DNA of 64,000 bases from the NCBI RefSeq assembly GCF_014642075.1, contig NZ_BMIK01000015.1:1-64000 (forward strand), given 5' to 3'. The notes under the pieces are model-generated. The model was given only the letters and a program-made list of their open reading frames with translations. It was not told the DNA's origin and did not search any database. This DNA is from Parapedobacter defluvii (GTDB lineage Bacteria > Bacteroidota > Bacteroidia > Sphingobacteriales > Sphingobacteriaceae). Positions within the stretch are counted from its first letter, which is position 1. The number at the start of each line of letters is the position of its first letter. A program made the translations under genes and the position numbers. Below are positions 1 to 48,650 of this stretch, piece by piece.

Positions 1-197
1 TAAACTTTCTTCTTGATTTCTTCATTCTCAACTGCTAATTTAAACATTTATGCAGTTGTCCAGTATTTGGGGAGTATCACATATTTCTATCGAGCTGCCA
101 ATCATTTGATCAAAACCTCACTCGCTTCAGATTCAAATCACATTGTTTTTAAAGATAAAATGTTTATAAATAATATCCAAATAAAAGCTACAACAAG

Positions 198-350
198 AAG
201 CCCCGAAACGGGGAGAATCGGGGCTTGCAAACTAACCAATTATAAACCTAAATTATGAAAAGACAAATTTTACTAACTGACTATATAACGCATTCCGACC
301 CCGCTTTGTTACAGCGGGATTGTTAAGATATGTTAAAAAGACAATAGCGT
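198..350 (+). repeat. Dispersed hairpin/small-ORF element, copy A
   Basis: Seen: a 9-bp stem (198-206 with 218-226, AAGCCCCGA/TCGGGGCTT) encloses a second possible stem, CCCCG-AAA-CGGGG (201-213), so the two folds exclude each other. An AU-rich leader (227-254) follows, then a 23-codon ORF and a conserved trailer with TGTTAA and AGACAATA. The same order recurs at 3119 and 48495 with about 90% identity through the leader. There is no U-tract after the hairpin, so it is not a textbook terminator. It runs straight into a worn copy of the second repeat family at 361. Function is unknown. Confidence 0.85.
255..326 (+). CDS. Conserved 23-aa small ORF, copy A
   Basis: Predicted peptide starts MKRQILLTDYIT and ends LLQRDC. 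It aligns without gaps to the 23-codon ORFs at 3177 and 48556, with variable residues at 13-17 and 22. Among the 18 conserved codons the three copies show four synonymous changes and one conservative replacement (Ile5/Phe5), which suggests translation. The start follows the fixed AAATT of the leader. No signal peptide or family is recognised. It could be a leader peptide, a small regulatory protein, or an RNA whose conservation mimics coding. Expression is unproven. Confidence 0.5.
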   Translation: MKRQILLTDYITHSDPALLQRDC

Positions 351-360
351 GATAAAAAGA

Positions 361-412
361 GAAACCTGTTACCTGAAAGATAATGGAAATCCGCCCCAAT
401 GGGGTTAGGATC
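361..412 (+). repeat. Second repeat family, worn copy
   Basis: This copy begins like the near-identical 79-nt elements at 8980 and 17041 (GAAACC-GTTACCTGAAAGATAA, then CCGCCCCAATGGGGTTAGG) and then diverges. In its first stem the arms have changed from CCCGTTA/TAACGGG to CCTGTTA/TAATGG. G-C pairs have become G-U wobbles, so the stem is mostly kept. It lies directly after copy A of the first family. Confidence 0.7.
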
Positions 413-426
413 AATCCGTACTAAGT

Positions 427-491
427 GTCTCGTCCTAAAAACACTTTACAGATTTAACCATTAATCCTAAAAGAACTTTACAGGACAAGAC
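427..491. repeat. Small inverted-repeat element with internal direct repeats
   Basis: Ends GTCTCGTCCT (427-436) and AGGACAAGAC (482-491) pair in 9 of 10 positions. Inside are two 18-nt direct repeats, CCTAAAAACACTTTACAG and CCTAAAAGAACTTTACAG, 33 nt apart. This looks like the two ends of a lost insertion sequence or a miniature element, but no transposase or target duplication was identified. Confidence 0.35.
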
Positions 492-561
492 ATGTGCGGC
501 ACAAGGCAAATATCTTTACATATGAATAGTGGCCACAAACACACGTTGATTTTTGATTTTA

Positions 562-590
562 GGGAAATGGCTGGTGCGTAGCCATTTCCT
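562..590. terminator. Strong hairpin, terminator-like
   Basis: A 10-bp perfect stem, GGAAATGGCT (563-572) with AGCCATTTCC (80-89 of the same hundred, i.e. 580-589), has a 7-nt loop. It is followed by TTATT and preceded by TTTTGATTTT, so it could terminate in either direction. No gene ends nearby in the visible sequence, so it may be a remnant of deleted DNA. Confidence 0.45.
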
Positions 591-799
591 TATTGAAGTT
601 TGGATTTCAATAAATTAGTTTTTACTTTTAGCGAAACCAATTGTGACCTGGGCCTGAAGTAAACGGGAATTTTGCTGAATAGAACAGGTGATTGTTTAAC
701 GCCTTGTGTGGCGAGGTTGGACATTCTATTTAGAGGTTAATGGTTATAGCGATTTCCAGTTCTTTAAAAGTGCCGAGGTGTTGAATAATCTAAACAATC

Positions 800-824
800 T
801 TGAAGTCGCAAATTGCGACCTCAA
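800..824. promoter_or_regulatory. Near-palindrome upstream of ORF6N gene
   Basis: TTGAAGTCGCAA-A-TTGCGAC-c-TCAA pairs in 11 of 12 positions and matches the core of the palindrome inside the gene at 1067-1097. It ends 23 nt before the start codon. It could be an operator for the ORF6N protein or debris from a duplicated ORF6N gene. Nothing in the sequence decides between these. Confidence 0.4.
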
Positions 825-847
825 ACAACAATACGACATGTAAGCCT

Positions 848-1435
848 ATGAGTAAAACACAAAACGAAACCATCAAGAAAACCGTGATACCTGACGAGGT
901 AGTTATCAACAAAATATACCTTGTACGTGATCAAAAAGTGATGCTCGACAGCGACTTAGCAGAATTGTACGGGGTCGAAACCAAGCGACTGAACGAACAG
1001 GTCCGCCGTAATATGGCGAGGTTTCCGGAGGATTTCATGTTCACCCTCACCCGCGACGAATTTGAAAACTTGAAGTCGCAAATTGCGACTTCAAGTTGGG
1101 GAGGTAGGCGCAAGTTACCCAACGCTTTTACCGAGCATGGCGTGCTAATGCTATCAAGCGTGTTAAACAGCGAACGGGCGATACAGGTAAATATCCAGAT
1201 TATGCGCATCTACACCAAAATAAGGGAGATGCTGCTTGCGCACAAGGACGTATTCCTCCGCGAGGAACAGGTGGAATTAATAAGTTTTATGAAGCCGAAG
1301 AATATAACTGCCGCTCAGAAAAGACTTTTTGCAAATTGCAAGATTCTTTCGATTGATATGAAGAACAACGGGCGGGATAGGGCGGACGATTCCTTGAAAA
1401 AGTTCCGTATATTTATACTTGGTTTCTTGTGGTAA
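848..1435 (+). CDS. ORF6N-domain (KilA-N type) protein, 3' end replaced
   Basis: ORF6N domains are phage- and mobile-element-associated DNA-binding modules. Residues about 16-145 match the family: KIYLVRDQKVMLDSDLAELY, then TKRLNEQVRRN, FPEDFMF, SSWGGRRKLP and AFTEHGV. I chose the ATG at 848 because codons before it are not family-like. After the conserved EEQVE (about 1275) the usual C-terminal helix is gone. The ORF continues out of frame through a ParE-like remnant to a stop at 1433-1435, so the gene is truncated. A 31-nt perfect palindrome lies inside it (1067-1097) and a near copy sits about 25 nt before the start. Whether a working protein is made is doubtful. Confidence 0.7.
   Translation: MSKTQNETIKKTVIPDEVVINKIYLVRDQKVMLDSDLAELYGVETKRLNEQVRRNMARFPEDFMFTLTRDEFENLKSQIATSSWGGRRKLPNAFTEHGVLMLSSVLNSERAIQVNIQIMRIYTKIREMLLAHKDVFLREEQVELISFMKPKNITAAQKRLFANCKILSIDMKNNGRDRADDSLKKFRIFILGFLW
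1067..1097. repeat. 31-nt perfect palindrome inside ORF6N gene
   Basis: Arms AACTTGAAGTCGCAA and TTGCGACTTCAAGTT pair perfectly around a single central A. The segment encodes the NLKSQIATS part of the ORF6N domain. A shorter relative with one mismatch lies at 800-824, upstream of the start codon. Confidence 0.9.
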
Positions 1436-1436
1436 A
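1282..1436 (+). pseudogene. ParE/RelE-type toxin remnant
   Basis: Read in the frame starting at 1282, codons give KFYEAEEY, then YEEQRAG (1357-1377), GGRFLEKV and YIYTWFLV. This resembles the mid-part of ParE-family toxins (YEEQRAGLGERFL is a common core). There are in-frame stops at 1354-1356 and 1378-1380 and no start, so it is debris. It overlaps the 3' end of the ORF6N reading frame. The core shares about 35 of 40 bases with a second remnant at 6336-6389. Confidence 0.6.
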
Positions 1437-1490
1437 TAGCCTATTTCAAGATTTTGGCATTGTATTTTTACCGATTTAAACATACTTACG

Positions 1491-2054
1491 ATGAAAGCAA
1501 AAAATAAAGTTTTAATAATTGTCTGTTCTGCCGGCTTAGTGGTTCTTTTCAATTCCTGTGTCTCTATCCCAAAAAACGCGAAGGCGATAAGGAACTTTGA
1601 TGTGAATAAATATTTAGGCACTTGGTATGAAATTGCCCGTTTTGATTTTCGTTTTGAAAAGGATCTGGACAATGTTTCCGCTCAGTATACCCTTAATAAC
1701 AAAGGTAATATTACGGTGTTGAATAGTGGTTATAACTATAAAAAAGGAGAATGGGAAAAAGCGCAAGGAAAAGCGAAATTCAGAAGAGATAAAGATATTG
1801 CAGAATTGAAAGTAAGTTTTTTTGGTCCTTTTTATGCCGGTTATAATGTGCTGGCGTTGGATGAGAATTACCAATATGCGTTGGTTTGTGGAAAAAACTT
1901 GAATTACCTGTGGATTTTATCGAGAGAGAAGACGATTCCCGAGGAGGTTAAGACTAATTACCTGAGGCTTGCCGAGGAAATTGGCTTTGATACCACTAAT
2001 TTGATTTGGGTAAAACAGGACAGAAACGACAATCCGTATTTGGTTGAAAAATAA
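1491..2054 (+). CDS. blc: Lipocalin family lipoprotein (Blc-like)
   Basis: This is a 187-aa outer-membrane lipoprotein of the bacterial lipocalin (Blc) family, proteins that bind fatty acids or lysophospholipids during envelope stress. Seen: signal peptide with lipobox ending in Cys23 (LFNSC); the lipocalin signature KYLGTWYEIARFDFRFEK at about 40-57; NVSAQYTLN; and a YLWILSRE strand near the C-terminus. The length is normal for the family. A degraded copy of the hairpin repeat lies 30 nt after the stop. Confidence 0.92.
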   Translation: MKAKNKVLIIVCSAGLVVLFNSCVSIPKNAKAIRNFDVNKYLGTWYEIARFDFRFEKDLDNVSAQYTLNNKGNITVLNSGYNYKKGEWEKAQGKAKFRRDKDIAELKVSFFGPFYAGYNVLALDENYQYALVCGKNLNYLWILSREKTIPEEVKTNYLRLAEEIGFDTTNLIWVKQDRNDNPYLVEK

Positions 2055-2083
2055 GGTCTCCACAAAACAAAAGATTCTAAAAA

Positions 2084-2109
2084 CAAGGCCTCGAAACGGG
2101 GAGAATCGG
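2084..2109 (+). repeat. Hairpin element, degraded copy E
   Basis: AGGCCTCGAAACGGGGAGAATCGG matches the hairpin core of the 198/3119/48495 family but has lost the closing GGGGCTT, the leader and the small ORF. It lies 30 nt after the lipocalin stop. Confidence 0.5.
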
Positions 2110-2204
2110 AAACATAAACACTATACACGGTTTGACGAATAGAAATTGATTGCTAATTTTAACAGCGAATCATGAGAGGATCAACAAACTGAAACTAACT
2201 ATTT

Positions 2205-2627
2205 ATGATAACCGTAAACCCATACCTCTATTTCAACGGGAATTGCGAAGAGGCTTTCGATTTCTACAAATCAGTATTTAAATCTGAATTCAATTTTATA
2301 GACCGATATAAGGATGTGCCGCAAAATAACCGCAGGTTGTTTACTGACCAGGACCATAAGATTATGCACATTTCCCTTCCGATCAGCAGCAAAACCACAT
2401 TGATGGGTGCAGACAATACGGCGCTGTTTAATCAACCGGTGTCAACGAGCAATTTCTCCTTATCGATCAATACGGACAACAAAGACGAGGCCGACACGCT
2501 ATTTCAAAGCCTATCCGAGGGCGGGGAAATTAAACTGCCAATGAACGAAACTTTCTGGGGTTCATACTACGGAATTGTGACCGATAAATTCGGCATCAAT
2601 TGGAAAATAAGCTTCGGGTCGGATTAA
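2205..2627 (+). CDS. VOC (PhnB-like glyoxalase) family protein
   Basis: A 140-aa single-module protein of the vicinal oxygen chelate superfamily, PhnB/3-demethylubiquinone methyltransferase-like branch. Characteristic features: NPYLYFNGNCEEAFDFYKSV at residues 5-24, IMHISLPI, MGADN, a C-terminal FWGSYYGIVTDKFGINW. The substrate is unknown. An ORF6N gene fragment begins 1 nt after the stop, so the region downstream has been rearranged. Confidence 0.88.
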   Translation: MITVNPYLYFNGNCEEAFDFYKSVFKSEFNFIDRYKDVPQNNRRLFTDQDHKIMHISLPISSKTTLMGADNTALFNQPVSTSNFSLSINTDNKDEADTLFQSLSEGGEIKLPMNETFWGSYYGIVTDKFGINWKISFGSD

Positions 2628-2628
2628 T

Positions 2629-2796
2629 GGAGATCAAAAAGTAATGCTTGACAGCGATTTGACTGATTTGTATGGAACAACGACCAAACGTTTAAATGAG
2701 CAAGTCAGACGTAACATCGCCCGCTTTCCGGAAGATTTTATGTTTCAATTGAACGAAGAAGAATGGGAATCTATTTCAACTGGAGGGAAGCACTGA
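2629..2796 (+). pseudogene. ORF6N-domain gene fragment
   Basis: The translation begins GDQKVMLDSDLTDLYG, continues TKRLNEQVRRNIARFPEDFM and ends in EEEWES before an unrelated tail and a TGA at 2794. It corresponds to the N-terminal half of an ORF6N domain, without a start codon. The break falls just before the position that is the palindrome in the intact copy at 1067. The following membrane-protein gene starts inside this fragment. Confidence 0.75.
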
Positions 2797-3098
2797 GGCC
2801 GTTGAACCTGATTAATCGGCAGATGACGCTGGCACACGTATTCTTCATTGCGCTGACCGTTTTTATGATGGGCTTGCTATGCGTAATGCATACGGAGGAC
2901 CTCATCACAACCCGCATGGGTAAGACAATTTCCTTGGGTTTGGGCATTTTTTGGATAATCCGGCTGCTGATCCAGTTTTTTGGATACTCCTCAGAGCTTT
3001 GGCGAGGGAAGGTATTCGAAACGACTGTGCATGTGGTGTTTAGCTTATTGTGGATATATTTCAGCGCTATGTTTCTTTTAGTTGCGATAGCTAGGTGA
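2763..3098 (+). CDS. Small integral membrane protein, function unknown
   Basis: A 111-aa protein with three predicted membrane segments (about residues 25-42, 56-75 and 88-110) and the charged stretch GYSSELWRGKVFE between the last two. I know of no assigned function. Its ATG at 2763 lies within the ORF6N fragment, so the original 5' end may have been lost. Family-like sequence seems to begin around residue 9 (ALRPLNLINRQ). Repeat copy B follows 20 nt after the stop. Confidence 0.7.
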   Translation: MGIYFNWREALRPLNLINRQMTLAHVFFIALTVFMMGLLCVMHTEDLITTRMGKTISLGLGIFWIIRLLIQFFGYSSELWRGKVFETTVHVVFSLLWIYFSAMFLLVAIAR

Positions 3099-3118
3099 TG
3101 CGTTATCAGGTCAAAAAC

Positions 3119-3275
3119 AAAGCCCCGAAACGGGGAGAATCGGGGCTTGCAAACTAACCAATTATAAACCTAAATTATGAAAAGACAAATTTTATTAACT
3201 GATTATATAACGCGTTACAGCGGCGGATTGTTACAACGAATCTGTTAAGATTTGTTAAATAGACAATACGATGAC
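3119..3275 (+). repeat. Dispersed hairpin/small-ORF element, copy B
   Basis: The hairpin stem is 3120-3128 with 3140-3148, and the alternative stem is CCCCG-AAA-CGGGG at 3123-3135. Leader, 23-codon ORF and trailer follow in the same order as copy A. Identity to copy A is complete from the hairpin through the leader to about codon 6 of the ORF. The trailer matches up to about 3275 and then diverges. Confidence 0.87.
3177..3248 (+). CDS. Conserved 23-aa small ORF, copy B
   Basis: Predicted peptide starts MKRQILLTDYIT and ends LLQRIC, the same length as the other two copies. Compared with copy A, codons 7, 9, 20 and 21 differ only synonymously (CTA/TTA, GAC/GAT, CAG/CAA, CGG/CGA). Codons 13-17 and 22 are free to vary. 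The last sense codon is always TGT (Cys). Function unknown. Confidence 0.5.
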   Translation: MKRQILLTDYITRYSGGLLQRIC

Positions 3276-3376
3276 TAAAAAAGAACCCTTAGCACGAAGG
3301 CACGAATTTATTTTTATCTTTTGGCTGATTGCATACAGCTCTTCAATGAGCTGAACAATATAACACAGATGTTATC

Positions 3377-4087
3377 TTATTTATTCGGTAGTTCATCAAG
3401 CAGGGATTTCCCAAAAGTATCCAATTTTCCGTTGTCTGCTACGATATATACCAATTGCTGTATAGCGGCGGCTAAAGGGCCGTCCTTATTAATATCCCCG
3501 CTTGCCTCCAGGTTTTTAGTTTCCAATTTTTTTATAAGATCGAGCATAGGTGCGTATTGTGTTACCGGTCCAATCCTGTATAAATCTCCTACGCCAGGAA
3601 AAAATCTTGACCCATTTAAACATTGTGCCCTTATTGGAACATACAGATATTGTTCAGCAGGTATCTCGCGACTGACTTTTTGAACAAGAATGCCATTCTG
3701 TATTTTTGTTTCTTTGGAAATAAAAATCAGCCCTGGGGGAAGCTGTAAATTAACGGGTTGTTTTGAGCTATTTCTGAATAACAGACATAACGGAACATAT
3801 CCCTCTGCCGGAGCTCCTACCCTGGGTTCCCCATTGCAATCGGTTTCATCTATAGGGTTGTATGGCTCTATTCCTTCCAAAGTTACACCTGTAGGTAATA
3901 TAAGCGGTGTCCCTTCCGGTTCTTCCTCTGAACCAGCGAATCCTTTGGCGGGTACAAAATCGGAGGTGTCCTCTTCGTCGTCACGCTGGTAGTTGTCCTT
4001 GCTACAACTGGAAATAATCAGTAAGCTTACTATAAAAATAGTTAGTGGCTGTAAAAATTTCGGTTTCATCAGTTCTTGCTTTTTCAT
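3377..4087 (-). CDS. Putative lipoprotein, function unknown
   Basis: A 236-aa predicted lipoprotein: signal segment with lipobox IISSC (Cys at about 28), then an acidic linker (DDEEDTSDF). No known domain was recognised. The mature part contains two Cys residues in the middle (DETDCNGEP and VPLCLLF) and a later AQCLNGSRFFPGVGD. A second start (MKPKFLQ, 4069) is equally plausible and gives a more usual signal peptide. No operon partner is evident. Confidence 0.7.
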   Translation of the reverse strand: MKKQELMKPKFLQPLTIFIVSLLIISSCSKDNYQRDDEEDTSDFVPAKGFAGSEEEPEGTPLILPTGVTLEGIEPYNPIDETDCNGEPRVGAPAEGYVPLCLLFRNSSKQPVNLQLPPGLIFISKETKIQNGILVQKVSREIPAEQYLYVPIRAQCLNGSRFFPGVGDLYRIGPVTQYAPMLDLIKKLETKNLEASGDINKDGPLAAAIQQLVYIVADNGKLDTFGKSLLDELPNK

Positions 4088-46343: not shown

Positions 46344-46832
46344 ATGACCGCATCGCCTGAAAATCATCACATTCACCTGCAACGCTGTATAGACTTGGCA
46401 AAGCAGGCATTGGACGAGGGAAATGACCCTTTTGGTTCGTTGCTTTTATCTGCCGAGGGCGAAGTTTTGTTTGAGGACTACAACCACACGGTAAACGGCA
46501 ACAAAATGCTGCATCCGGAGTTGGCTGTTGCACAATGGGCGGTGGAGAATATGACGGAAGAAGAAAGGGCAACAGCAGTCGTGTATACTTCCGGCGAGCA
46601 TTGTGCGATGTGTTCTGCGGCACATGCTTGGGTTGGATTGGGAAAGATAGTCTATGCCACGTCAGCTAAACAATTGGGTAAATGGATGTCCGAATTCAAC
46701 GCCGAACCGCCGCCAATCAGGCTTCTTGGCATAAAAGATATCGCGCCTGCCATCGAAACCGAAGGCCCTTTTGAAGAGTTCGCCGAAGAGATTCGAGAGC
46801 TGCATAAAAATAACATAAAGCTCCGAAACTGA
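46344..46832 (+). CDS. Nucleoside/cytidine deaminase-like protein
   Basis: A 162-aa zinc-dependent deaminase: NDPFGSLLLSAEGEVLFEDY at 27-46, HPELAVAQWA (zinc His57 and catalytic Glu59; HPE where HAE is usual) and SGEHCAMCSAAHAW with Cys87 and Cys90. This resembles guanine/cytosine-type deaminases (TadA-like fold). Its last four codons plus the stop lie in a degraded copy of the hairpin repeat, so the C-terminus may have been reshaped. TATTTTTG at 46311-46318 is a possible -7 element. Confidence 0.88.
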   Translation: MTASPENHHIHLQRCIDLAKQALDEGNDPFGSLLLSAEGEVLFEDYNHTVNGNKMLHPELAVAQWAVENMTEEERATAVVYTSGEHCAMCSAAHAWVGLGKIVYATSAKQLGKWMSEFNAEPPPIRLLGIKDIAPAIETEGPFEEFAEEIRELHKNNIKLRN

Positions 46833-46956
46833 GAGAATCCAGGCCTTTAAACTAACCAATTATCAGCCTAAAATACGAACCCGGATGATTTAACTAATTA
46901 TTAAATCACGAAGGGATAAGAAAATTAACGAACCGATGAAAAGACAAGTTTTAAAT
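46817..46956 (+). repeat. Hairpin/small-ORF element, degraded copy D
   Basis: AAGCTCCGAAACTGAGAGAATC and the leader AAACTAACCAATTATCAGCCTAA match the family with several changes. About 70 nt of other sequence then intervenes before ATGAAAAGACAAGTTTTAA at 46936, the start of the small ORF, now read into different sequence. The copy overlaps the end of the deaminase gene and abuts the stop of the convergent GNAT gene at 46956. Confidence 0.65.
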
Positions 46957-47468
46957 CAGGCAATGCGCTTCCCTAAAATTTTCAATCCGTGTTCTTCTCC
47001 GTCAAGTACGGCAATATTTGGAAGGGTTGCCCAATCTTCAAATCCAAAATACCTGAATAATTTAAGGCTTGGCTGGTTGTGCGAGAAGATAAATGCAAGT
47101 AAAGTTTTCACCCCAAAATCGGGAGCATGGCCGATGCAATATTCAAGGATACGTTTGCCCAAACCGTTGCCTCTTTGCGCTGCATCAAGGTAAATACTTA
47201 TTTCGACCGTGGCGTCATACGCAGGCCGCCCATAAAACGATTGAAAGCTGACCCAACCGATTGTTTCGTTATTTTGATTTTCAACCATCCAAAGCGGCCT
47301 TTTTGCCGGATTGTGCTCATCAAACCATTTTTGCCGGCTCTCAACCGTTACCGGCTCGGTATCAGCAGTAACCATTTTTGACTCAATGGTCGAGTTGTAG
47401 ATTTCGACAATCTTGACTAGGTCCTGCTGCGTTGCATCCCTGAATTTTATCGGCATATGTGGCTTCAT
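46956..47468 (-). CDS. GNAT-family N-acetyltransferase (phosphinothricin acetyltransferase-like)
   Basis: A 170-aa acetyltransferase: KFRDATQQDLVKIVEIYNST at the start, KRPLWMVENQNNETIGWVSF, EISIYLDAAQRGNGLGKRIL (acetyl-CoA binding loop RGNGLG) and LAFIFSHNQPSLKLFRYFGF. This order is typical of the Bar/Pat subfamily, which acetylates phosphinothricin or methionine sulphoximine. The physiological substrate is not known. Confidence 0.9.
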   Translation of the reverse strand: MKPHMPIKFRDATQQDLVKIVEIYNSTIESKMVTADTEPVTVESRQKWFDEHNPAKRPLWMVENQNNETIGWVSFQSFYGRPAYDATVEISIYLDAAQRGNGLGKRILEYCIGHAPDFGVKTLLAFIFSHNQPSLKLFRYFGFEDWATLPNIAVLDGEEHGLKILGKRIA

Positions 47469-47685: not shown

Positions 47686-48489
47686 ATGGGCAACATACTA
47701 TTACTGACTGATTTTTCACCGGGGTCTAACAATGCTGCTGCATATGCCCTGAAACTTGCCAGGCAACTTCGATTCGATTTACTGCTGTTACATGTAACCG
47801 ATACTGAAGATGGAAACTCAACCGATACTCTGCAACAATTCGACAAATTGAAAAACAGCATCAGTAAAACGGATGCCGGAATGGACAACTACCAACCTGC
47901 TTTGGTGGATATCCTTGTAAAGGGTAAATTGACGGAAGGGATTGCAGGGGTCTTAAAGCAAAAAGACATTGACCTGGTTGTTGTCGGCGCCACAGACGGA
48001 GAAAATAAGACCGGTATGCTATTTGGCAAACGGGTAAGGGAAATTATCGATTCAGTGCAATATCCTACCTTGTTGGTGCCGTCTGCCGCCAGATTTAAAG
48101 AAATACGTGATGTATTCTATGTGACGGACATTCGCTATGCCAACACCCAGGCGATTGAGCGATTAATGCGCATCGTCCGGCTGTTAAAAGCGAACCTTTC
48201 CGTGTTGCATATCGGGGCGTCTGGCCTTCCTGAATTATCAAAACAACATACGCAATCGCTATTTAACGAATTGGTTATGACGGTTCCGGGGCAGCTACCC
48301 CGTTTTTTGATTCCCAATCAAAGTCACAAACCCGAGACACTCATCCGTGAACTTTTTGTTAGCCAAGGGCAGGATGTGCTGGCCGTTGCGCATCGTGAAC
48401 ATCATTTCTTCGGACATATTTTTAGAGACCACCATACGGAAGACGCAGTGATCTACAAAGAGATCCCTATGCTGATCCTGCCGGTATAG
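47686..48489 (+). CDS. Universal stress protein, two-domain
   Basis: A 267-aa Usp-type protein. The first domain (about 1-135) shows GNILLLTDFSPGSNNAAAYA, FDLLLLHVTD, and DIDLVVVGATDGENKTGMLF then VRYPTLLVPS-like (VQYPTLLVPSAARF). The ATP-loop Gly-rich signature is altered (GATDGENKTGMLFG), so nucleotide binding is uncertain. The second domain is more divergent, ending KEIPMLILPV. TACATTTG at 47655-47662 is a likely -7 element. Repeat copy C starts 10 nt after the stop. Confidence 0.88.
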   Translation: MGNILLLTDFSPGSNNAAAYALKLARQLRFDLLLLHVTDTEDGNSTDTLQQFDKLKNSISKTDAGMDNYQPALVDILVKGKLTEGIAGVLKQKDIDLVVVGATDGENKTGMLFGKRVREIIDSVQYPTLLVPSAARFKEIRDVFYVTDIRYANTQAIERLMRIVRLLKANLSVLHIGASGLPELSKQHTQSLFNELVMTVPGQLPRFLIPNQSHKPETLIRELFVSQGQDVLAVAHREHHFFGHIFRDHHTEDAVIYKEIPMLILPV

Positions 48490-48494
48490 AAATA

Positions 48495-48650
48495 AACAAA
48501 GCCCCGAAACGGGGAGAATCGGGGCTTTCAAACTAACCAATTATAAACCTAAATTATGAAAAGACAATTTTTATTAACTGATTATATAACGCATGACAAT
48601 GCCCTTTTGTTACAGCGAAAGTGTTAAATTTTGTTAAACACGCTGTACCG
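48495..48650 (+). repeat. Dispersed hairpin/small-ORF element, copy C
   Basis: Here the stem is 10 bp, AAAGCCCCGA (48498-48507) with TCGGGGCTTT (48519-48528), again with the alternative CCCCG-AAA-CGGGG inside. Leader and small ORF follow as in copies A and B. The trailer keeps TGTTAA but diverges sooner. It lies just downstream of the universal stress protein gene and 45 kb from the other good copies. Confidence 0.87.
48556..48627 (+). CDS. Conserved 23-aa small ORF, copy C
   Basis: Predicted peptide starts MKRQFLLTDYIT and ends LLLQRKC. It keeps the length and the fixed positions of copies A and B. The variable block (codons 13-17) differs from both and codon 5 is TTT instead of ATT. In copies B and C codon 17 and codon 22 can base-pair in the same register with different bases (GATT/AATC and CTTT/AAAG), so RNA structure may also be under selection. 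Confidence 0.5.
   Translation: MKRQFLLTDYITHDNALLLQRKC

Follow-up and report, generated by a model that had tools for sequence, protein, structure and literature searches.

The described system closest in build to the unit reported here is FopS of Bacteroides thetaiotaomicron. FopS is reported to be multicopy, to carry a 5' seed and a terminator, to pair with mRNAs at susC start codons and to be carried by phages as well, with RbpB, a protein of the RRM_1 class, as its partner (Ruttiger et al. 2025, PMC11697453). GibS of the same species is described as a single sRNA with two seed regions, whose conserved single-stranded 5' seed pairs at translation initiation regions (PMC7366714). In E. coli, 3'ETS-leuZ is reported to be a regulatory RNA that derives from the 3' trailer sequence of a precursor tRNA and serves as a sponge of other sRNAs (reviewed in PMC8166272).

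The window analyzed here, a stretch of 64,000 nt of the Parapedobacter defluvii genome, contains copies of a repeated unit that is built like FopS. Multicopy paralogs per genome are common to both: the P. defluvii genome (5.8 Mb) contained 20 BLAST matches, and 20 and 15 matches to our covariance model R1 at E<=0.01 and E<=1e-4, respectively, and 9-23 R1 matches were found in 9 of 9 genomes of the genus. A Rho-independent terminator directly after the seed is likewise a shared feature. This comparison was made by description and not by sequence, and membership in the FopS family is not claimed. Differences concern the occurrence of the unit, which was found in the family of the window (Sphingobacteriaceae, judged by the named members), and its upstream parts, which are an ECF-like promoter in the window copies and tRNA-like modules in many relatives. 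RbpB-type proteins (RRM_1, PF00076) gave 0 matches in the P. defluvii genome and were found in a Bacteroides ihuae control. By description, GibS shares the conserved 5' seed and differs as a single sRNA with two such regions. 3'ETS-leuZ is comparable to the tRNA-like units with seed in relatives, but it derives from a true tRNA transcript, whereas the module of the relatives is tRNA-like, lacks an encoded CCA and was not found in the P. defluvii genome.

Judged from its sequence, the repeated unit very probably is a minus-strand sRNA gene. Each full copy would be a stand-alone gene for a trans-acting sRNA of about 90 nt, which in the copies of the window would be transcribed from a promoter of the alternative-sigma type, TGTAAC-N17-CGTTAT. 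The transcript would be composed of an AU-rich 5' part, the seed GUCUUUUCAUAAUUUAGGUUUAUAAUUGGUUAG, which is nearly invariant, and a Rho-independent terminator. Reverse-complemented, the seed reads like a translation start (CUAACCAAUUAUAAACCUAAAUUAUGAAAAGAC), and it would pair across the leaders and start codons of mRNAs for glycan uptake, from susC and further PUL genes, thereby blocking their translation. Many copies would provide dosage, and different promoters would respond to different triggers. The sRNA anatomy, the strand, the multicopy family and a false ORF that matches promoter-like elements are supported by the sequence, and we infer transcription, the sigma factor of the promoter, pairing with susC/PUL mRNAs and the direction of regulation. 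As a whole, the account of stand-alone trans-acting sRNA genes acting on glycan-uptake mRNAs is likely to be right; for FopS-like repression of susC/PUL translation we see about equal chances of being right or wrong. An earlier note on this DNA had proposed a dispersed RNA-based regulatory unit. This view is retained, with a different strand and without the ORF and the switch; strand, ORF and switch had all been misread.

Three full copies had been reported for the window and are indeed present, at about 197-337 (copy A), 3119-3259 (copy B) and 48498-48638 (copy C). Their AU-rich leader had been called near-constant, and a 39-nt piece of it is identical in 3 of 3 copies (0 mismatches) and was absent from 100 shuffles. 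The hairpin core was present in all three and in a remnant at 2092-2109. All features lie on the minus strand. For copy A, the transcript comprising seed and terminator is predicted at 187..279 (both ends being estimates; fold z -2.47) and the R1 match at 178-258 scored 87.3 bits, with copy A itself among the 44 copies used to build R1. It contains the nearly invariant seed GTCTTTTCATAATTTAGGTTTATAATTGGTTAG at 232..264 and the terminator hairpin at 197..227, with the T-rich tail toward lower coordinates and a terminator scan site at 213-201. The promoter-like TGTAAC-N17-CGTTAT, which is ECF-sigma-like, is located at 285..313, and upstream of its -35-like element a direct repeat TTTAACA-N4-TTAACA at 321..337 is a possible activator site. 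Copy B has its predicted transcript at 3108..3201 (ends estimated; fold z -3.43), the R1 match at 3100-3180 (88.7 bits), the seed at 3154..3186, the terminator hairpin at 3119..3149 (scan site 3135-3123), the promoter-like element at 3207..3235 and the TTAACA direct repeat at 3243..3259. The corresponding positions in copy C are 48487..48580 for the predicted transcript (ends estimated; fold z -3.00), 48479-48559 for the R1 match (88.5 bits), 48533..48565 for the seed, 48498..48528 for the terminator hairpin, 48586..48614 for the promoter-like element and 48622..48638 for the direct repeat. The predicted transcript of copy C is convergent with an Usp-domain ORF at 47686-48489 (Usp, PF00582). 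A degenerate fourth copy at 46798..46878 (L010; minus strand, R1 49.4 bits, E 4.3e-10) has 4 mismatches within the 25-nt seed and an imperfect hairpin, and a hairpin remnant without seed was found at 2066..2119 (L018; minus strand, R1 17.1 bits, E 0.028).

Strand and fold were analyzed in alignment A1, which comprises 44 copies from P. defluvii and related genomes and omits 2 of 46 distinct copies, the degenerate L010 and L098, which is without the hairpin. On the minus strand, a hairpin with a T-rich tail followed the seed in 43 of 43 distinct copies, with a mean of 5.2 T in 10. G-U pairs made up 36 of 536 stem pairs on this strand, and the mean fold energy was -18.2 kcal/mol as against -16.3 kcal/mol on the plus strand. 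The terminator stem covaries: 66 cells were changed on both sides compared to 20.3 in shuffled data, every slid version was lower, and RNAalifold found changes on both sides in 6 of 6 pairs of A1. A terminator scan of positions 1-4000 gave 5 sites versus 3.1 in shuffles, and the two located at copies A and B, on the minus strand, carry little weight alone. The predicted window transcripts folded better than shuffles (z -2.5 to -3.4). Since the plus strand of copy B also reached z -2.8, the fold alone cannot pick the strand, and the minus strand was chosen because of the T-rich tail and the promoters. A plus-strand RNA was rejected, as the T-run after the hairpin sits on the minus strand and the minus strand folds better. 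The switch-like hairpin of the earlier note is more plausibly a covarying Rho-independent terminator of the minus strand, without a conserved alternative fold. Two mutually exclusive folds had been proposed, but the inner hairpin CCCCGTTTCGGGG is possible in just 13 of the 44 aligned copies, and a riboswitch or attenuator with two conserved pairings was rejected on the same count. Despite the variable stem, the terminator loop reads CTCCCC in 31 of the 44 A1 copies and is GCCCA/GCTCATC-like in 10. This C-rich loop is a possible second contact site.

On the minus strand, the terminator is preceded by the nearly invariant AU-rich stretch AUAAUUUAGGUUUAUAAUUGGUUAG. In the seed ATAATTTAGGTTTATAATTGGTTAG, 23 of 25 columns were invariant in the 44 aligned copies, a value that is inflated, since exact patterns had been used to collect the majority of them. 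All 25 bases were intact in 14 of 20 BLAST-chosen P. defluvii loci and in 23 of 30 model-chosen loci. The remaining 7 model-chosen loci differed by 1 base in four cases and by 4-5 bases in three, and GGTTTATAATTGGTTAG was kept in 6 of the 7. In the consensus fold of A1, which begins at the seed, the seed is unpaired. In the minimum free energy folds of the predicted window transcripts, much of it pairs with the AU-rich 5' part (ensemble frequency 0.01-0.05), and the seed may therein not be freely single-stranded. Two loci in genomes of another genus of the family (L444 in G020 and L447 in G041) show by eye a variant of the core, AGGTTTATATTTGGTTAG, with a hairpin and a T-rich tail behind it.

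The regions upstream of the seed differ in kind. TAnnTTTG, the Bacteroidota -7 element, precedes the AGG core at a distance of exactly 22 nt in 47 of the 152 distinct copies that have no T-arm, and 32 of 57 copies having TAnnTTTG carry TTTG 23 or 24 nt farther upstream. A palindrome GTGTA...TACAC occurs in the promoter region of 24 of the 152 copies without T-arm and in 0 after one shuffle. Its carriers include L012, L016, L185, L221 and L265, and this GTGTA-N-TACAC palindrome is likely to be an operator for a regulator. In the subtype of the window, 10 of 51 copies contain TGTAAC-N17-CGTTAT, as compared to 5 matches in 10,200 shuffled sequences, and the spacer is 17 in all 10 although 15-19 was allowed. 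We regard this motif as ECF-sigma-like, presuming that its spacing and its AAC/CGT cores are those of ECF promoters. This likeness extends to spacing and cores. In its exact form, TGTAACAA-N15-CGTTAT, the motif has 5 sites in the P. defluvii genome, all at sRNA copies. The genome-wide search gave no other exact site and no sigma factor that could be linked to it, and sites with 1 mismatch numbered 2 compared to 3 for a reversed-pattern control. In another subtype, CCCTCA stands before the core (L020, L170, L176, L191, L205, L227, L230, L270, L271 and L275). In several of these, a box resembling TAnnTTTG is located about 60-75 nt upstream, and some show a 5' hairpin. As a general module preceding the seed, such a 5' hairpin was not supported.

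Further copies in the genome and in relatives, which the earlier note had proposed to search for, were found in numbers. Within a sample of 100 genomes, R1 matched 55 of 61 family genomes at E<=0.01 and 46 of 61 at E<=1e-6, while 6 of 39 genomes of other families had weak matches at E<=0.01 and 0 at 1e-6. In a sample of 295 genomes of the class, four genomes outside the family gave single weak R1 matches each at E<=1e-4. Single weak R1 matches in other families of the class (G081, C4:83437-83509; G096; G418; G421) may represent distant relatives or have arisen by chance. In a scan of named genomes, Sphingobacterium, Parapedobacter, Mucilaginibacter, Olivibacter, Arcticibacter, Pedobacter and others were among the matches listed, and no Bacteroides was among these. 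An archaeal record (L182) contains by eye the core without terminator, which looks like a chance match. The unit gave no match to Rfam at gathering scores, and at E<=10 the nine matches obtained for 401 bases were at chance level. A known Rfam sRNA family was rejected on this basis, with FopS possibly missing from the Rfam set used. A search of plasmids gave no copy of either the window unit or a tRNA-like unit, and the 33-nt seed gave 19-nt plasmid matches in Ligilactobacillus only. Titles and abstract openings of the papers listed in searches of open-access literature contained no description of the unit, neither as a Sphingobacteriaceae sRNA family nor as tRNA-like sRNA modules.

The seed complement CTAACCAATTATAAACCTAAATTATGAAAAGAC resembles a leader with a start codon. 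The full seed formed 11 duplexes of <= -20 kcal/mol with 605 start regions (800 kb of one P. defluvii contig plus the window), whereas 80 shuffled seeds gave a mean of 2.9 and a maximum of 8 on the same regions. Part of this excess could come from the complement of ATGAAAAG. With the core seed without CAT in the region from -45 to the ATG, 15 of 552 leaders reached <= -14 kcal/mol (shuffled mean 2.8, maximum 7). Other intervals gave 2-4 and an overlapping one 9, and a second run gave 0-5 in four other intervals. This all-gene leader enrichment of the 800 kb of P. defluvii did not recur in stretches of 400 kb from G004 and G056, nor was it seen there with exact 8-10-mers. A near-perfect mRNA match to the seed was not found. 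One site outside the sRNA copies matched 18 of 21 nt of the complement (3 mismatches) with no gene link seen, and a reversed-pattern control for the 21-nt seed complement also gave 1 site.

Leaders of susC genes were analyzed separately. For 42 leaders of P. defluvii, representing 41 of 56 TIGR04056 matches and one susC-like gene of the window, the mean duplex energy was -10.0 kcal/mol versus -8.3 kcal/mol for shuffled seeds, and 0 of 200 shuffles were as low. Nine of the 42 reached <= -12 kcal/mol, a number reached by 1 of 200 shuffles, and there was no clear excess of strong duplexes, given that 24 of 200 shuffles attained the 2 of 42 leaders seen at <= -14 kcal/mol. In G004 (Parapedobacter; 15 of 53 leaders used), 1 of 200 shuffles was as low as the real mean. 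The effect was not significant in G056 (15 of 200; 14 of 55 leaders, one partial dropped), low in G061 from another family (6 of 200; 10 of 53 leaders) and absent in G081 (90 of 200; 10 of 22 leaders). The G070 loci, all under the cut-off, were left out. The low value in G061 hints at a contribution of generic leader composition. The susC leader match beats shuffled seeds in the two Parapedobacter genomes tested and not cleanly elsewhere. Among 20 of 24 candidate targets that were scanned against Pfam, about half had, in our own judgement, family names related to carbohydrate use or PUL regulation. These were SusC-like, SusD, FecR (twice), ECF sigma factor and sugar transporter as well as rhamnosidase, gluconolactonase, FGGY kinase and LacI. 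As susC genes abound in the scanned stretch, little weight can be given to this list alone.

In Mucilaginibacter, Arcticibacter, Pedobacter and others, the core is located directly behind a tRNA-like sequence. The T-arm-like GGTTCGANNCC followed by the core after 10-40 nt was found in 86 of 201 family genomes and 11 of 25 genera, with 0 in the rows of a reversed-pattern control. A set of 29 full-length units from 24 loci aligns as a cloverleaf with a 7-bp acceptor, a 3-bp D arm and a T arm of 5 bp that contains TTCGA. In the 29 units, pairing is 100% in the acceptor, D and T stems, and the D stem never varies. The anticodon stem carries a constant U.U mismatch (29 of 29), the variable arm is very long, and CCA is not encoded in any aligned unit. 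Compensatory changes were seen in 9 pairs as compared to 4.2 when shuffled and <=2 when slid. TAnnTTTG occurred within 90 nt upstream in 43 of 65 tRNA-like units, mostly at 38-45 nt (shuffled 3.6), a rough count since a few rows, including L199 and L216, have the module start in the wrong place. ARAGORN predicted no tRNA at the module in the 17 loci scanned of the 24 in the alignment, and Rfam gave no tRNA in 12 tRNA-like loci at gathering scores, nor in L282 3980-5720 at E<=1. The module had 0 matches in the P. defluvii genome with up to 3 mismatches and none in 9 genomes of the genus. Perhaps it is a maturation module, with tRNA-processing enzymes setting the 5'-end of the sRNA. Shorter versions apparently without anticodon arm were seen by eye in L172, L226, L246 and L167, and units occur in tandem arrays of up to five. 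Examples of loci with tRNA-like units are L282:3983-5634, L211:3414-3865, L169 and L194. Two Flavo-1 RNA (RF01705) matches are located near a tRNA-like/sRNA unit at L242:4176-4258 and 799-879.

Furthermore, the core was represented in predicted viral sequences. In IMG/VR, 37 stretches contained the 18-nt core complement (L449-L485), and behind 33 of these, some of which are near-identical to each other, a terminator-like fold was found. In L458 (e.g. 3061-3200), the core follows 17 nt after a tRNA-Asp gene on a stretch that also encodes terminase, portal and major head proteins. In L462 (e.g. 1073-1200), an Rfam tRNA match ends 21 nt before the core, and in L472 and L473 ARAGORN placed tRNAs of undetermined type before it. 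Rfam searches of 13 IMG/VR stretches gave tRNA only. The unit of L453 is also present in a Sphingobacterium mizutaii record (L181). No named phage relatives of L483 and L458 were found, and L457 gave only short and weak matches, in which 5 of 24 records were of Bacteroides phages and covered 3-4% of the query. Tenacibaculum phage JQ matched the seed at 93% over 29 nt, but as the sequence that follows does not form a terminator (-0.5 kcal/mol), this phage was not counted.

Three other explanations have to be weighed against an sRNA gene. The unit had been described as encoding a translated and conserved 23-aa peptide, either a leader peptide or a small-protein family. This frame is open in the three P. 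defluvii copies of the window and in L178 of Parapedobacter soli, and its conserved blocks stay in frame. Conservation across copies did not hold: among 229 distinct copies for which 200 nt downstream were available, the ATG (...ATTATG) is absent in 78, the 23-aa LLQ frame occurs in 4 of the other 151, and thus it is broken or absent in 225 of 229. A frame disrupted in most copies is what the earlier note had named as speaking against its peptide readings. Within the P. defluvii genome, 3 of 15 copies have it. The plus-strand frame is the antisense of the promoter. DYIT lies opposite the -10-like CGTTAT, LLQR opposite the -35-like TGTAAC region CGCTGTAACAA, the final Cys-stop opposite TTAACA, and the five variable residues opposite the fixed 17-nt spacer, so that the conserved blocks are explained by the -10-like and -35-like elements and the frame looks preserved because the spacer length is constant. 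The synonymous changes that had been taken as a sign of translation can be explained without it, as the codons concerned lie opposite promoter-like elements. Moreover, the T-run of the hairpin that precedes the ATG is found on the opposite strand. A translated peptide is therefore extremely unlikely.

It is also conceivable that the conserved stretch is the site of an RNA-binding protein, and that the RNA is a protein sponge or depends on a chaperone instead of pairing with mRNAs. An invariance of 25 nt is long for a seed and exceeds what pairing with varied targets would require, no near-perfect mRNA match was found, and many copies would suit a sponge. Against this stand the preference of the core seed for start regions and susC leaders in the P. 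defluvii genome and the reported pairing of FopS, the closest in build, with mRNAs (PMC11697453), and we consider a protein site unlikely. Dispersed copies, the decayed ones at 46798-46878 and 2066-2119 among them, and copies in predicted phage contigs would also fit REP/MITE-like or phage-derived mobile cassettes with terminator and leader as passengers. However, seed and terminator are retained behind upstream sequences of different kinds, and this persistence, together with the covarying terminator stem, indicates selection on the RNA rather than hitch-hiking. We thus regard mobile elements as very unlikely.

If the sRNA reading is correct, Sphingobacteriaceae would be a further large family of Bacteroidota with a global post-transcriptional regulator of the FopS build, in a genome in which no RbpB-type partner was found. 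Tentatively, and with less confidence than in the account itself, one may imagine a Sphingobacteriaceae-wide sRNA system that combines one nearly unchangeable pairing stretch with interchangeable 5' modules. These modules would be housekeeping promoters that carry a palindromic operator, promoters of the ECF-like type, or a tRNA mimic kept on purpose, with a giant variable arm, from which tRNA-maturation enzymes would cut out the sRNA. Phages might have copied the system, sometimes behind true tRNA genes, and so reset the outer-membrane uptake of the host. Whether a tRNA mimic can be retained for the maturation of an sRNA would be directly testable on the tRNA-like modules, and the predicted phage contigs would exemplify a bacterial regulatory seed in phages. 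As a caution, a promoter with fixed spacing on the wrong strand can mimic a conserved, synonymously varying ORF.

Between copies A and B, an ORF6N-domain gene is located at window positions 800-1435, and a second, shorter ORF6N-like fragment was seen by eye at about 2630-2795. In some Parapedobacter copies, among them L042 and the window at 46870-46960, the stretch from ATTATGA to AAAGACAA is split by about 70-100 nt of other sequence (by eye), which looks like an insertion into the unit.
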